Assembly (NCBI RefSeq): GCF_014191425.1
Contig: NZ_JACHWP010000001.1
Coordinates: 992,001-1,056,000 of the forward strand
Direction: 5' to 3'
DNA: 64,000 bases
DNA from: Helcobacillus massiliensis
GTDB lineage: Bacteria > Actinomycetota > Actinomycetes > Actinomycetales > Dermabacteraceae
Shown here: positions 38,618 to 61,592 of the stretch, in pieces
Position numbering within the stretch: position 1 is the first letter of the stretch
Layout: each line of letters begins with the position of its first letter
The notes under the pieces: generated by a model
Databases searched by the model: none
The model's input: only the letters and a program-made list of their open reading frames with translations
Told to the model about the DNA's origin: nothing
Position numbers and translations under genes: made by a program

Positions 38618-40588
<1,971 letters not shown>

Positions 40589-52840: not shown

Positions 52841-53065
52841 CCCCGTTACCTTGTGAGCACCCCGATGGACGGGGTCTGGTCGCTCGGCCGGGTATGGCTT
52901 TGTTGCCCTGCCATTGATGGTCCGGGGGGTGTTGCCGCCCGGTCGAGAGACACGCGTTGACCGCTGATAGGGACACGGCCCAGCTCTGTCTGAGGTCTCT
53001 TCGTAACGTGGGTGCCGGCATCGGGTGTCGAGACTGCGGCCAGCAGTGATGAGGAGGACAGCGTC
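52841..53065 (+). ncRNA. Putative IS110 bridge-RNA locus (copy B)
   Basis: Same sequence as the left end of copy A, with the donor-guide candidates at 52967-52976 and 53003-53008. The target-binding loop is therefore expected to be the same in both copies. Confidence 0.55.
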
Positions 53066-54289
53066 ATGAACACAGGGTTCGCGGTCGTGATCGGCCTGGA
53101 CGTCGGGAAGACAGCTCACCACGCGTGCGCACTCGACCCGGAGGGGAACAAGCTGTTCGACAAGCCCCTCCCGCAGGACGAGACCAAACTTCGCGAGCTG
53201 TTCACCCAGCTGCAGAACCACGGCGAAGTGCTGCTGGTCGTCGATCAGCCGAACACCATCGGAGCGTTGCCGATCGCGGTGGCCCGGGATACCGGCTGCA
53301 CAGTCGCCTACCTTCCCGGATTGGCGATGCGGAAGGCCGCGGACCTCTATCCGGGCAGGTCAAAGACCGATGCGCGCGACGCGTTCATCATCGCCGACAC
53401 GGCCCGCACCATGCCTCACACCCTCCGGCAGGTCGATCGCGACAGCGAGGTCCTCTCCGCACTGAAGGTCCTTGCCGGCTTCGACGAGGACCTCGCCCAC
53501 GAGACCACAAGGGCGCTGAACCGGATCCGGTCCCTGCTCACCCAGATCCACCCCGCGCTCGAGCGCGTCTTCGCAGGCGGGACCCTCTCGACCGGACTCG
53601 TGCTGGACCTGCTGGAGAAGTTCGGCGGACCCACCGGCCTCCGAAGTGCCGGCCGAAGGAAGGTGCTGCGGTTCGCCCGCGCGCATTCACGCCGCGACCC
53701 CGAGACGCTGGTCGAGCAGATCTTCACAGCCCTTAGCGAGCAGACCGTCATCGTGCCCGCCACCGCAGCGGTTGAGCTGGTGATCCCCCGAGTCGCTGGC
53801 CAGGTTAAAGAGCTGAAAGAACAGCGCGCGACCGTGGCCCACGAAGTGGAGGGCATGCTGGAGGACTTCCCTCTCGCCTCGGTCTTGATGAGCATGCCGG
53901 GGATCGGCATCAAGACCGCCGCCCAGATCCTCCTCGCGATCGGTGATGGCTCCGCGTTTGAGTCCGCCAGCCACCTCGCGGCCTATGCCGGGATCGCGCC
54001 GGTCACCCGCAGATCAGGCACCTCGATCCGCGGAGAGTTCCCCGCCCGGTCAGGGAACAAACGCCTGAAGAACGCCCTGTTCTACTCCGCCTGGGTCGCC
54101 TCCAACCACGACCCCATCTCCAAGGCCTACTACGATCGCAAACGCGCCGAAGGCAAACGGCACAACGCCGCCGTGATCTGCCTAGCCCGCCGCCGCTGCA
54201 ACGTCATCTACGCCATGCTCCGCGACGGCACCTACTACCAGCCACCGACAACCGCCCCTACCCCCGAGCCGACCGCTCTCGCGGCTTGA
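53066..54289 (+). CDS. IS110-family recombinase/transposase, copy B
   Basis: 407 aa, identical to copy A except Thr173 instead of Lys173. The catalytic residues D12, D60, D102, D105 and the candidate Ser317 are intact. The nearby codons of copy B (ACC CTC TCG) fit the high-GC usage of the element better than those of copy A (AAG CTT TCC). Copy B may therefore be the ancestral form, and A may have acquired a patch from a relative. Confidence 0.95.
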   Translation: MNTGFAVVIGLDVGKTAHHACALDPEGNKLFDKPLPQDETKLRELFTQLQNHGEVLLVVDQPNTIGALPIAVARDTGCTVAYLPGLAMRKAADLYPGRSKTDARDAFIIADTARTMPHTLRQVDRDSEVLSALKVLAGFDEDLAHETTRALNRIRSLLTQIHPALERVFAGGTLSTGLVLDLLEKFGGPTGLRSAGRRKVLRFARAHSRRDPETLVEQIFTALSEQTVIVPATAAVELVIPRVAGQVKELKEQRATVAHEVEGMLEDFPLASVLMSMPGIGIKTAAQILLAIGDGSAFESASHLAAYAGIAPVTRRSGTSIRGEFPARSGNKRLKNALFYSAWVASNHDPISKAYYDRKRAEGKRHNAAVICLARRRCNVIYAMLRDGTYYQPPTTAPTPEPTALAA

Positions 54290-56007: not shown

Positions 56008-58659
56008 TCAGTCCGCTTCCTGCTCCCCGGTGACGGTCAGCGCCAGCGCATCGTCCGCGGCGTCGACGGCCACGGCGATCGTGTCGCCGTCGCGCACCGC
56101 GCCCTGCAGGATCAGGCGGGCGAGCTGGTCGCCGATCTCCTTCTGCACCAGACGCTTCAGCGGACGAGCACCGTAGGCGGGGTCGTAGCCCTTCTCGGCG
56201 AGCCAGCGCTCCGCCTGCTCGTCGACGTCCAGGCTGATGCGGCGGTCCTCGAGTCGCTGCGCGACCGAGGCGATCTGCAGGCCCACGATGTGGGTGAGTT
56301 CGTCGCGGCCGAGCGGATCGAACATGACGATGTCGTCCAGGCGGTTGAGGAACTCCGGTTTGAAGGCGGCGCGCACGGTCGCCATCACGGCGTCCTCGCG
56401 GGCCGACGGCTCCATCTCCTGATTCTGCAGGAACTGCGAACCGAGGTTCGAGGTGAGGATCAGGATGGTGCTGCGGAAGTCCACCGTGCGCCCCTGGCCG
56501 TCGGTCAGACGGCCGTCGTCCAGGACCTGCAGCAGGATGTCGAAGATGTCCGCGTGGGCCTTCTCCACCTCGTCCAGCAGGACCACCGAGTACGGGCGGC
56601 GGCGCACCGCCTCGGTCAGCTGACCGCCCTCGTCATAGCCCACATACCCCGGAGGGGCGCCGACGAGACGGGACACCGAGTGCTTCTCGGCGTACTCCGA
56701 CATGTCGATGCGGATCATGGCGTGCTCGTCGTCGAAGAGGAACTCGGCGAGGGACTTCGCCAGCTCCGTCTTGCCCACACCCGTGGGACCGAGGAACAGG
56801 AAGGATCCCGTCGGCCGGTTCGGGTCGGCGATGCCGGCGCGGGAGCGCCTCACCGCATCCGCCACCTCGGCGACGGCGCGCTTCTGCCCGATGAGGCGCT
56901 GCCCGATGATGGACTCCATGTCCAGCAGCTTCTGCGTTTCGCTCTTCAGCAGGCGGCCGGCGGGGATGCCGGTCCAGGCGGAGACGACGTCGGCGATGTC
57001 GTCCGGTCCAACCTTGTCCGCCACCAGCGGTGCGCGGTCGTCGACGGTCTCGGCCTGACCGGACTCCTCGGCCTCCTCGGCCTCGGCGAGCTCCTGCTTG
57101 AGAGCGGGGATGTCGCCGTAGAGGATCTTGGAGGCGCTCGTCAGGTCGCCGTCGCGCTGGGCGCGGTCGGCCTGCATGCGCAGGTCCTCCAGCTTCGCCT
57201 TCAGCTCACCGACCCTGTTCAGGCCGGCCTTCTCGCTCTCCCACCGGGCGGAGAGGGCGTTCATCTCCTCGGTCTTCTCCGCGAGCTGCGACTGGACGTG
57301 CTCGAGCTGGGCGCGGGACCCGTCGTCGTCGGAGCCCTGCAGGGCCATCTCCTCCATCTTCAGGCGGTCCACCTGGCGGCGCAGGATGTCCAGCTCCACC
57401 GGGGAGGAGTCCAGTTCCATGCGCAGGCGGCTGGCGGCCTCGTCGACCAGGTCGATGGCCTTGTCCGGCAGCTGGCGGGAGGCGATGTAGCGGTCGCTCA
57501 TCGCGGCTGCCGCGACCAGGGCGGAGTCGGCGATGGTGACCTTGTGGTGCGCCTCGTACTTGTCCTTGAGTCCGCGCAGGATCGTGACGGTGTCCTCCAC
57601 GGACGGCTCGCCGACGAACACCTGCTGGAAGCGGCGCTCCAGCGCCGGGTCCTTCTCGATGTTCTCGCGGTACTCATCCAGGGTGGTGGCGCCCACCATG
57701 CGCAGTTCGCCGCGGGCGAGCATCGGCTTGAGCATGTTGCCGGCGTCCATGGATGAGTCGCCGGTGGAGCCGGCGCCGACCACGGTGTGCAGCTCGTCGA
57801 TGAAGGTGACGATCTGGCCGTTGGACTGGCGGATCTCGTCGAGGACGGCCTTCATCCGCTCCTCGAACTCGCCGCGGTACTTCGACCCGGCGACCATCGA
57901 GGACAGGTCCAGGGCGATGAGGGTCTTGCCCTGCAGGGACTGCGGGACGTCACCGGCGACCATGCGCTGGGCGAGGCCCTCGGCGACAGCGGTTTTGCCG
58001 ACTCCCGGTTCGCCGATGAGCACGGGGTTGTTCTTGGTGCGGCGGGACAGGACCTGGACCACGCGGCGGATCTCGGCGTCGCGGCCGATCACCGGATCGA
58101 GCTTGCCCTCGCGGGCTCGGGCGGTGAGGTCGAGTCCGTACTTCTCGAGGCTCTTGAAGGTGCCTTCGGGGTTGGAGCTGTTCACGGGGGTGCCTCCGGT
58201 AAGGGTGGTGATGGCGGCGCGCAGGGCCTCTGCGGTGGCGCCGGAGTCGGTCAGGATGTCGCGGGCGGGGCTGGCGGCGGTGGCGATGCCCAGCAGCAGG
58301 TGCTCGGTGGAGATGTAGGGCCGGTCGTCCTCGCCGCGGGCGGCGGCGTCGGTGCGCGCGAGTCCGGCTGCTTCACCGGCTGCTTCGAGGGCGTCGTAGC
58401 CGTCGCCCTGCACGGTGGGCTTGACCACGGAAGTGCCGCTGACGCGTGGCAGGCCCTCGAGCTCGCGCTCCACGCCCCTGGTGAGGGACGGGATGTCGAC
58501 GCCGACCTCCCGGAGGGCGGCGGTCGCGATGGAGTCCTCCTGGCCGAGCAGGGCCTTGAGGATGTGCGCCGCAGTGACGGCGGGGTTGCGGCGGGAGGAG
58601 GCGGAGTGCGCTGCCTGCTGCACAGCCTCTTCTGAACGGGTGGTGAAGCGGAAGTCCAT
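56008..58659 (-). CDS. clpB: Disaggregase chaperone ClpB
   Basis: 883 aa. The ATG at 58657-58659 is chosen because AAGGAG lies 8 nt before it; an upstream GTG would overlap that site. The N domain contains [22 protein letters not shown]1 has [17 protein letters not shown] long charged coiled-coil (about residues 400-530) is the ClpB middle domain, with no UVR motif. NBD2 has [17 protein letters not shown]. With DnaK it dissolves protein aggregates. A HAIR operator lies 90 bases upstream, so HspR is the likely repressor. Confidence 0.97.
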
Positions 58660-58748
58660 TCCACGCACTCCTTTCGCTGGTGTCGTTGACAGTGGATCAC
58701 AGGCCGGTGGGAGTTCCCACGACCATCACTGAGAACAACGACAGCGAA

Positions 58749-58797: not shown

Positions 58798-59226
58798 TCA
58801 CAGGCTGAACGGGCCGCTCCCGCGCCGCTGGGTGTTGCTCGCGCGGCCGCGCAGTCGATCCAGCGCCCTGCGCTCCTTCTTCGTGGGCCGGCCGCTCCCC
58901 CGTTCCCGTCTCGGCGGCGCCGCGAACAGCTGCGGGGGCGGCGGCGGGGACACGTCCTCGTACGCGCTCTGCGCGATCGGAGCGCCCACCCTCTTCGCCA
59001 GGAGGCGCCGCACCACGAAGATCCGCTCATGCCCGGGCCGACGGATCCTCACCTCATCGCCCACCGCCACCTTCGCCGACGCCTTCGGCACCTCGGAGTT
59101 CAGCCGCACATGACCGGCGGTGATCAGGCTCTTCGCCGCCGAACGGGTCTTCGCCAGCCGCACCGCATGCAGCCACACGTCCAGGCGTGCGGAGCTCGGA
59201 TCGGAGGCGGCGGCGGGGCGGTTCAT
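58798..59226 (-). CDS. S4-domain RNA-binding protein (Hsp15-like)
   Basis: 142 aa from the ATG at 59224-59226. The S4 domain reads RLDVWLHAVRLAKTRSAAKSLITAGHVRLN, followed by VGDEVRIR. A basic, Pro-rich tail (GRPTKKERRALDRLRGR) follows, as in Hsp15-type heat-shock proteins that rescue stalled 50S subunits. It lies just upstream of clpB on the same strand, which fits a stress link. A TAGGGT hexamer is 7 nt before the start. Confidence 0.9.
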   Translation of the reverse strand: MNRPAAASDPSSARLDVWLHAVRLAKTRSAAKSLITAGHVRLNSEVPKASAKVAVGDEVRIRRPGHERIFVVRRLLAKRVGAPIAQSAYEDVSPPPPPQLFAAPPRRERGSGRPTKKERRALDRLRGRASNTQRRGSGPFSL

Positions 59227-59233
59227 GCGGCCC

Positions 59234-59239
59234 ACCCTA
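59234..59239 (-). promoter_or_regulatory. -10 hexamer of a probably leaderless S4-protein gene
   Basis: TAGGGT on the minus strand, 7 nt from the ATG at 59226, no Shine-Dalgarno. Confidence 0.45.
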
Positions 59240-59355
59240 CCGAGCAGGTGAGCGTCCACGGCGCCGTTCGCGCGTGCCGGGCGGACCCCCGGCACTGTTC
59301 AGGAAGCATCCCTAGACTCACGGGGACGGAACCCACAGAAGGAGCGGATGCGAGC

Positions 59356-60846
59356 GTGCCCCAGAGATTCGCGAAGTACTACGCTCCCGGCACAGCGCGC
59401 ACGGTCACCCCGGAGTTCACCAACGTCCCCGCCGCCATCACCGCGGCCGCCGAGCGGTTCGCGTCGTCGGTCGCCCTCGACTTCCAGGGCCGGACCCTCA
59501 CCTATCGGCAGCTCGGACAGCAGATCGACATCGCCGCGCAGGGGCTGCTGGACCGCGGCATCCGCAAGGGCGACCGCGTCAGCCTCCTGCTGCCGATGAG
59601 CCTGGACGCCGTCATCGCCTTCCATGCCGTTCTGCGGATCGGCGCCGTGGTCGTGCAGCACTCCCCGCACACCCCCGCCGCTCAGCTGTCCCGCTACTTC
59701 GACGACTACGAACCGGTGTGCGCCATCGTCTCCGAGGAGCGCCTCGGTGTGCTGACGCGGATCCCGTCGGCCGCGCTGCCGCTGTCCGTGATCGCGGTGC
59801 CGCGCCCGCCCTCTCAGCTCGACGTCACGAAGATCTCCCTGACCGGCACCATCTCCACGCTGAAGAGGACCGCCGCCGTCTCCACCGGGAAGCTCGCGCG
59901 GCCCTTCATGAAGCGGGAGAAGCCGGCCGAGAAGGGCGGGGCCGACGGGTTCTACGTCGGCAAGTGGCGGAGCGTGCTCACCTCCGCCCGGATCGACGCC
60001 GACCACCCCATGCCCAGCGGCGACGACATCGCCCTGATCATGTACGGAGATGAGGGCGGCCGGCACCCCCTCGGGTCGATCATCACCCATGGGAACCTCT
60101 GCGCCATGGCCGCCCAGTCGCTGTCGTGGCTGGCGGACACCCAGCCCGGGCAGGAGGCGAGCCTGGCGATGTGGCCGCTGCACTCCGTGGTGGGCGTGGC
60201 CGATGCGCTCACCACGAGCCTGTTCCACGGTCGCCGCGTCATCCTCATCCCCGCCTTCGACCGTGCCGCGGTCGCCAAAGCGGTGAAGAAGCATCGGCCG
60301 GTGGTCCTCGCCGCCGATACCGAAGTGGTCGACCACCTCGCCGCCCTCGCCCACGACGGCAAGCTCGACATCGCCAGCATCCGCGTGGCCTTCACACCGA
60401 CGTCGCGCATCACCGAGGAGACCGCCACGAGCTGGCTGGAGGCCACCCACCAGATGCCGACGATCATCGGCTACGGCCTGGAGGAGTCGTGCGTGGTCGC
60501 GGCGATCCCCGGCATCAGCCCCCACCCGGAGGCGATCCGCGCCCTCGCCGCGTTCAGCGACTCGCCCGGCATCGTCGGCATCCCCTTCCCCGCCACCCAG
60601 ATGCGGGTGGTGGATCCCAGCCACCGCGGCCGCGTCCTGCCCACCGGCGACGCCGGCGAACTGATGGTGAAGGGTCCACAGGTGTTCCACGGCTACTGGG
60701 GCCGCCCCGACAAGACCTCTGAGGTGCTCACCGGGGACGGCTGGGTCCTCACCGGCGACATGGCCGTGATGGACGCCGACGGGTTCGTGGAGATCCTCGG
60801 TCGGGTCAGCTCCGGCAGGAAGCGCGACTGCCCCACCGGCCAGTAG
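59356..60846 (+). CDS. Degenerate, C-terminally truncated AMP-binding (acyl-CoA synthetase-like) protein
   Basis: 496 aa from a GTG. The fold is that of long-chain acyl-CoA synthetases: ALDFQGRTLTYRQLGQQ near the start, AVLRIGAVVVQHSP, YGLEES, and VLTGDMAVMDADGFVEILGR near the end. Two things are wrong for an active enzyme. The phosphate-binding YTSGTTGxPKG loop is replaced by YGDEGGRHPLG. The mobile C-terminal domain with the catalytic lysine is absent, the protein stopping 17 residues after the hinge. It may be a pseudoenzyme or a decaying gene, although the frame is clean. A TAGACT -10 candidate lies at 59313. Confidence 0.75.
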   Translation: MPQRFAKYYAPGTARTVTPEFTNVPAAITAAAERFASSVALDFQGRTLTYRQLGQQIDIAAQGLLDRGIRKGDRVSLLLPMSLDAVIAFHAVLRIGAVVVQHSPHTPAAQLSRYFDDYEPVCAIVSEERLGVLTRIPSAALPLSVIAVPRPPSQLDVTKISLTGTISTLKRTAAVSTGKLARPFMKREKPAEKGGADGFYVGKWRSVLTSARIDADHPMPSGDDIALIMYGDEGGRHPLGSIITHGNLCAMAAQSLSWLADTQPGQEASLAMWPLHSVVGVADALTTSLFHGRRVILIPAFDRAAVAKAVKKHRPVVLAADTEVVDHLAALAHDGKLDIASIRVAFTPTSRITEETATSWLEATHQMPTIIGYGLEESCVVAAIPGISPHPEAIRALAAFSDSPGIVGIPFPATQMRVVDPSHRGRVLPTGDAGELMVKGPQVFHGYWGRPDKTSEVLTGDGWVLTGDMAVMDADGFVEILGRVSSGRKRDCPTGQ

Positions 60847-60857
60847 GCGCGGCGCGC

Positions 60858-60863
60858 TAGGCT
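60858..60863 (+). promoter_or_regulatory. -10 hexamer of a probably leaderless deoD transcript
   Basis: TAGGCT followed by 6 nt and ATG at 60870; no Shine-Dalgarno. Confidence 0.5.
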
Positions 60864-60869
60864 GGGCGC

Positions 60870-61592
60870 ATGTCGACACACATCGGAGCCGAACCCGGCC
60901 AGATCGCACCCCATGTCCTGATGCCCGGCGACCCCTACCGGGCCCGCTGGATCGCCGAGGACTTCCTCGAGGACGCCGAGCTCGTCACGGAGGTCCGCGG
61001 CATGCTCGGCTACACCGGCACCCACAACGGCCGCCGCGTTACTGCCATGGGCTCCGGCATGGGACAGCCGTCCATCGGCATCTACGCGCAGGAGCTGTTC
61101 GCCGAGTACGGCGTCGAGGCCATCATCCGCGTCGGCAGCTGCGGCGGCCTGTCCGAGAAGGTCGCTGTGCGCGACGTCGTCATCGGCTCCGCCGCCTCCA
61201 CGGACTCCGCGATGAACCGCGCCCGCTTCGGCGACGTCACCTTCGCGCCCACCGCGGACTTCGACCTGATGCGCGCCGCGGTCGACTCCGCGAATGAGCG
61301 CGGCCTGCCCGCGGTGGTGGGCGGCCTGTTCTCCTCCGACCAGTTCTACAACCCGCGCACCGACATCACCGCGACCCTCGCCGGCTACGGCGTGCTCGGC
61401 GTCGAGATGGAGGCATCGGCCCTGTACACCCTCGCCGCGCAGTTCGACCGCCGCGCCCTCTCCATCTGCACCGTGTCCGATCACCTCATCACCGGTGAGG
61501 AGACCAGTGCGCAGGAGCGGCAGGAGACCTTCTCCGACATGGTCGTCATGGCGCTGGATGCGCTGCACACCCTGGACGTCAGCACCCACTGA
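60870..61592 (+). CDS. deoD: Purine-nucleoside phosphorylase, DeoD type
   Basis: 240 aa, matching the hexameric bacterial class. HIGAEPGQIAPHVLMPGDPYRARWIAE split by family-typical turns opens the protein; GSGMGQPSIGIYAQEL and RVGSCGGLSEKVAVRDVVI form the phosphate and base sites. GVEMEASALYTLA contains the ribose-binding Met-Glu, and SDHLITGEE the catalytic Asp. It splits purine nucleosides with phosphate for salvage, complementing hpt at 26378. Confidence 0.96.
   Translation: MSTHIGAEPGQIAPHVLMPGDPYRARWIAEDFLEDAELVTEVRGMLGYTGTHNGRRVTAMGSGMGQPSIGIYAQELFAEYGVEAIIRVGSCGGLSEKVAVRDVVIGSAASTDSAMNRARFGDVTFAPTADFDLMRAAVDSANERGLPAVVGGLFSSDQFYNPRTDITATLAGYGVLGVEMEASALYTLAAQFDRRALSICTVSDHLITGEETSAQERQETFSDMVVMALDALHTLDVSTH

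Follow-up and report, generated by a model that had tools for sequence, protein, structure and literature searches.

The locus and the architecture of the protein

We analyzed a stretch of 64,000 nt from Helcobacillus massiliensis (hereafter the window; G+C content 69%), in which a 496-aa open reading frame lies between an S4-domain gene and a deoD-like gene (Table 1). The sole Pfam match of its product, which we refer to as pseudo-FadD, is the AMP-binding domain PF00501 (7.8e-56; residues 30-448, positions 3-384 of 384 in the profile). The N-domain of acyl-CoA ligases is thus present over its full profile, and the C-terminal lid (PF13193), with its hinge and A10 Lys, is missing and gave no Pfam match. 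The top NCBIfam family is FadD PRK05605 (NF004114), which matches residues 4-484, that is, up to the hinge, with 310.9 bits against an equivalog cut-off of 766 bits. The promoter scan returned nothing. Opposite pseudo-FadD, an antisense open frame of 536 aa (59299-60909, minus strand) is probably an artefact of the high G+C content. The window also contains an AMP-binding enzyme with an intact lid (about 38732-40315, minus strand, in a 669-aa open frame), probably an acetyl-CoA synthetase, and, just ahead of the MFS/clpB stretch, a frame that by eye resembles an IS110-family transposase (53012-54289, plus strand).

Table 1. Features of the pseudo-FadD locus (window positions; residues are those of pseudo-FadD)
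Feature	Residues	Position	Strand	Remarks
clpB		56008..58668	-	syntenic marker in g1, g3 and g6
S4-domain (HSP15-like) gene		58798..59295	-	divergently oriented; also flanks the g3 orthologues; named by sequence resemblance
Shine-Dalgarno-like AGAAGGAG		59337..59344	+	11 nt upstream of GTG; from sequence
pseudo-FadD		59356..60846	+	496-aa ANL N-terminal domain without lid
Subdomain A	23-150	59422..59805	+	0.41 invariant vs 0.31-0.38 in active FadDs
Variable linker	151-205	59806..59970	+	
Former ATP P-loop (A3 motif)	230-240	60043..60075	+	YGDEGGRHPLG
A4/acyl-side helix	269-300	60160..60255	+	remodelled and re-fixed: W273, S277, A282, T287, R293
Former adenine/Mg site (SGAM, YGxTE)	336-405	60361..60570	+	5/56 = 0.09 invariant vs 0.40-0.47 in active FadDs
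YGLEES (A5 remnant)	373-378	60472..60489	+	Thr lost 5/5, Glu377 kept 5/5
Barrel and pre-hinge	406-480	60571..60795	+	still conserved, 0.47 invariant
TGD (A7)		60751..60759	+	present in window protein, lost in 4/4 g3 species
Non-conserved tail and TAG		60796..60846	+	truncation at A8 hinge, lid absent
deoD-like purine nucleoside phosphorylase		60870..61592	+	23 bp downstream; named by sequence resemblance

A first-pass annotation of this DNA had described a clean frame of 496 codons with a GTG start, a missing C-terminal lid and a P-loop replaced by YGDEGGRHPLG. These three observations were borne out: the frame runs from GTG to TAG, the Pfam search recovers PF00501 without PF13193, and residues 230-240 stand at equal length in place of the YTSGTTGxP[K/R]G of active relatives. 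The annotation had also raised a sequencing error near 60830 as a possible cause of the missing lid. An error or frameshift masking the lid was discarded: the stop codon occupies 60844-60846, the ATG of deoD is at 60870, and the 23-bp gap between the two genes leaves no DNA to code for a lid, while the proteins of all five species that carry pseudo-FadD end at the same hinge. A separate lid encoded elsewhere, which the annotation had proposed to look for, was likewise not found, since a PF13193 search of the five genomes (G000 and G039-G042) yielded no free-standing domain. Every PF13193 match lies in a frame of 415-2318 aa that holds, or adjoins in register, an AMP-binding match, and a split enzyme with its lid supplied in trans was rejected on this ground.

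The AlphaFold model, based on ten sequences, is of moderate quality (pLDDT 61, pTM 0.69), with residues 152-200, 232-258 and 378-412 poorly predicted. Foldseek matches it best to FadD5, 4-coumarate-CoA ligase and further ANL N-domains, so that the predicted model confirms the ANL fold class and nothing beyond it. The crystallised N-domains of FadD5 (8r2r) and FadD13 (3t5c) share the same lidless fold with this predicted structure (E-values of 4.7e-27 to 7.9e-26). These two entries are N-domains of full-length FadDs of the active type, whereas pseudo-FadD is naturally lidless and its ATP site is destroyed. Because both N-domains were solved alone, an N-domain of this kind can, by analogy, fold by itself.

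Orthologues, synteny and origin

We compared one species of genus g1 (the window genome), four species of the sister genus g3, and genera g2, g4 and g6 of the same family. All four g3 species possess a homologue of pseudo-FadD with 40-47% identity to the window protein, in open frames of 473-500 aa that contain no stop, and no frameshift was found in any of the five species. Each of the g3 orthologues presents a broken P-loop and ends at the same hinge as the window protein. The loss of the P-loop and the truncation at the hinge are shared by the sister species, and the possibility that this copy alone had decayed beside intact orthologues, which the first-pass annotation had entertained, is excluded. 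P-loop, TGD, hinge and lid are all present in the intact FadDs of g4, g6 and some g2, which are about 565-596 aa long.

The pseudo-FadD locus adjoins clpB and the S4-domain gene in both g1 and g3, with deoD nearby. In g6, one intact FadD adjoins clpB and another adjoins deoD; these two paralogues (L052:6843-8630 and L052:13234-14931) are about 5 kb apart. The intact FadD of g4 is followed by a Sua5-like gene, as in g3. Sua5-like and MFS genes separate pseudo-FadD from deoD in g3 (L047:10847-12818) and are missing from the window at 60846-60870; elsewhere in the window genome, the closest Sua5-like match presents only 26% identity. The G+C content of the g3 loci is 63-69%.

The five pseudo-FadDs group as one clade (100/100) on a long stem in a 38-protein tree, although the long branches of this tree leave their attachment point among active FadDs unsure. 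The ClpB tree groups g1 and g3 as sisters (100/99), with a ClpB divergence of about 22% between them. These two results fit one old origin, and a single loss in the common ancestor of g1 and g3 would be the simplest account. Judging from family match, tree and synteny, the ancestor is an ordinary long-chain FadD (PRK05605-like) inherited by vertical descent. The TGD was apparently lost later in g3, whose tail also differs.

Searches of 396 genomes from the order and 394 from the class revealed no further member of the truncated type: the pseudo-FadDs scored 799-890 bits and all other matches 353 or less. An open frame of 506 aa in genome G084 starts at base 3 of its contig and is thus cut by the contig end. 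Scanning the genome contigs yielded distant active ligases as the only matches, and viral contigs gave one weak match or none. We also considered that pseudo-FadD might be a paralogue maintained next to an active sister copy; this was rejected, as no second FadD of the clade was found in g1 or g3. A link between the loss and the loss of beta-oxidation was discarded as well, because g1 and g6 show no clean association: both beta-oxidation markers that we searched for are absent from g6, which has two intact FadDs, and present in g1, which has the pseudoenzyme.

Catalytic motifs and selective constraint

The P-loop signature of acyl-CoA ligases, [YF]TSGTTGxPKG with its Lys, is absent from pseudo-FadD. 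The catalytic Lys is replaced by Leu in all five species, and the g3 orthologues read YAQRGPAAPLG, YEGHTRASSLG (two species) and YEGGTRTSALG. The A5 signature YGxTE, with both Thr and Glu, is also absent from the pseudo-FadDs, and their SGAM loop is lost or freely variable, as is the hinge Arg in g3. Both motif remnants reported by the first-pass annotation, YGLEES and VLTGDM, are present in the window protein; the TGD of the latter is restricted to this species, with TKE, TTS, TSS or TPS at its position in g3. Of the 109 canonical columns with near-complete invariance in active FadDs, all five pseudo-FadDs keep 43; the other 66 are not kept in all five, some of them because the lid is missing. 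Conversely, 32 positions are invariant in pseudo-FadDs yet rare in active FadDs. These include W273 in place of Leu, S277 in place of His and S103 in place of Asn, and several of them, such as W273, S277, A282, D321 and V324, fall in the A4 and PPxF segments. From motif knowledge of ANL folds, the new invariant residues are tentatively placed in the acyl pocket. The re-fixed residues favour a new function over drift.

Adenylation by ANL enzymes needs the P-loop and the lid Lys, and thioesterification needs domain alternation. Since the P-loop Lys, the lid and the nucleotide contacts are gone, this established chemistry strongly argues that pseudo-FadD would be unable to make acyl-adenylate or acyl-CoA by the usual route. 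It could be supposed that the lidless protein retains some residual or changed catalysis, such as hydrolysis or a different reaction of acyl substrates, through Glu377 and the new residues. The 43 retained columns, Glu377 and the new invariant polar residues S103, S277 and D321 are consistent with such an activity. We regard it as unlikely, given the loss of P-loop, Lys, Thr, SGAM and, in g3, TGD, and given that the nucleotide half varies freely; we know of no ANL enzyme that is active despite all of these losses.

We further estimated the selection acting on pseudo-FadD, as the first-pass annotation had suggested. For three close g3 species, the dN/dS values are 0.055-0.066 at dS of 1.2-1.7, and neutrality is rejected (2dlnL of 350-402); beyond these three, protein identity is 40-50%, synonymous sites are saturated and dS is meaningless. 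For the same species pairs, dN/dS is 0.020-0.027 for ClpB, 0.016-0.036 for DeoD, 0.030-0.037 for MFS, 0.043-0.081 for Sua5 and 0.20-0.26 for one less constrained gene. The ratio of pseudo-FadD is about twice that of ClpB or DeoD. This faster evolution relative to its neighbours, together with the deeper erosion in g3, where TGD is lost, would be in line with a decaying pseudogene or an annotation artefact on its way out. Such a fate is nonetheless highly improbable: dN/dS is about 0.06 at a synonymous divergence above 1 per site, the five frames lack stops and frameshifts despite the ClpB difference between g1 and g3, and subdomain A is as conserved as in active enzymes.

Constraint was then mapped along the protein by counting invariant columns in the five pseudo-FadDs and, for comparison, in three groups of five active FadDs whose spread is similar or somewhat lower; the map is coarse, as the pseudo-FadDs represent three deep lineages only. 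In the P-loop, 3 of 11 columns are invariant (0.27), against 8-10 of 11 (0.73-0.91) in active FadDs, and the adenine/Mg site is even more variable (Table 1). The linker spans 50-55 residues in the five pseudo-FadDs, compared with 37-38 in the intact FadDs of the family (37-48 in the wider active FadDs listed). Invariance is 0.47 in the A4 helix (0.28-0.47 in active FadDs), in barrel residues 406-450 (0.42-0.49) and in pre-hinge residues 451-480 (0.27-0.43). This segment-wise comparison indicates that the nucleotide site is released from constraint and that the remaining segments are not.

A proposed binding protein of FadD descent

Pseudo-FadD bears the marks of a pseudoenzyme: its catalytic residues are lost, the loss is fixed across species, and purifying selection has acted since, as measured by dN/dS. 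Homology, orthology and fold (from the tree, synteny and Foldseek) all point to FadD as its source. Intact copies at syntenic positions in g6 and g4, the best family match and the shared N-domain fold relate pseudo-FadD to PRK05605, from which it differs by its bit score and by the absence of the lid, P-loop Lys, SGAM and YGxTE. We hold with high confidence that pseudo-FadD is a pseudoenzyme incapable of adenylation and maintained by selection, and it almost certainly has a job other than fatty-acid activation. The suggestion of a pseudoenzyme with a kept role, made from the window alone, agrees with the single origin, the low dN/dS and the uninterrupted frames in five species. Of the two roles offered with it, binding of a lipid or acyl group accords with the constraint map. 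The other, acyl-AMP binding, is disfavoured, since the elements that contact the nucleotide (the P-loop, the SGAM loop, the Thr of YGxTE and, in g3, TGD and the hinge Arg) have all been lost or vary freely.

We propose that a PRK05605-like FadD lost the use of ATP once, in the ancestor of two sister genera. In the present-day proteins the lid is deleted at the hinge, and the P-loop Lys, the adenine contacts, the Mg-site Thr and, in g3, the ribose contacts have disappeared. The remaining N-domain may act by binding, most likely by taking up a ligand in its remodelled acyl-side pocket. This ligand may be a fatty acid, an acyl-CoA or another hydrophobic molecule, for which pseudo-FadD would serve as carrier, buffer or sensor; a partner could be contacted through the exposed face that formerly docked the lid. 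Taken as a whole, a dead pseudoenzyme kept as a binding protein, including ligand binding in this pocket, seems to us an evenly balanced proposition.

The main rival possibility, which we consider less probable, is that the lidless protein serves as a scaffold or regulator, contacting another protein via subdomain A and the former lid face of the barrel, with no small ligand. Its partner might, equally tentatively, be a remaining long-chain acyl-CoA synthetase or a lipid enzyme. The barrel and pre-hinge region indeed stays conserved although its lid is gone, and these genomes encode two other AMP-binding enzymes, probably of the long-chain type. Yet the A4/acyl-side helix is under constraint equal to that seen in active enzymes and carries new fixed residues, neither of which a pure surface role needs, and no partner gene is linked to the locus, whose neighbours are housekeeping genes.

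Under the binding-protein reading, pseudo-FadD resembles bacterial pseudoenzymes in general, such as dead kinase-like or protease-like scaffolds, in which catalytic residues are lost, the fold is conserved and a new role (here a presumed one) is gained. We found no paper in the open-access literature describing an ANL-superfamily pseudoenzyme under that name. We lean slightly towards a new class of protein: an ATP-independent acyl/ligand-binding or regulatory protein derived from a FadD through deletion of its lid and release of its nucleotide half, and fixed in the g1 and g3 clade. Adenylate-forming enzymes are among the largest enzyme superfamilies, and a PF00501 match alone would lead to this dead protein being annotated as a CoA ligase. 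Genome data suffice to trace the ancestor, the single origin, the synteny and the segment-wise release of constraint, and with this history the abilities of the non-nucleotide half of FadD alone become testable.
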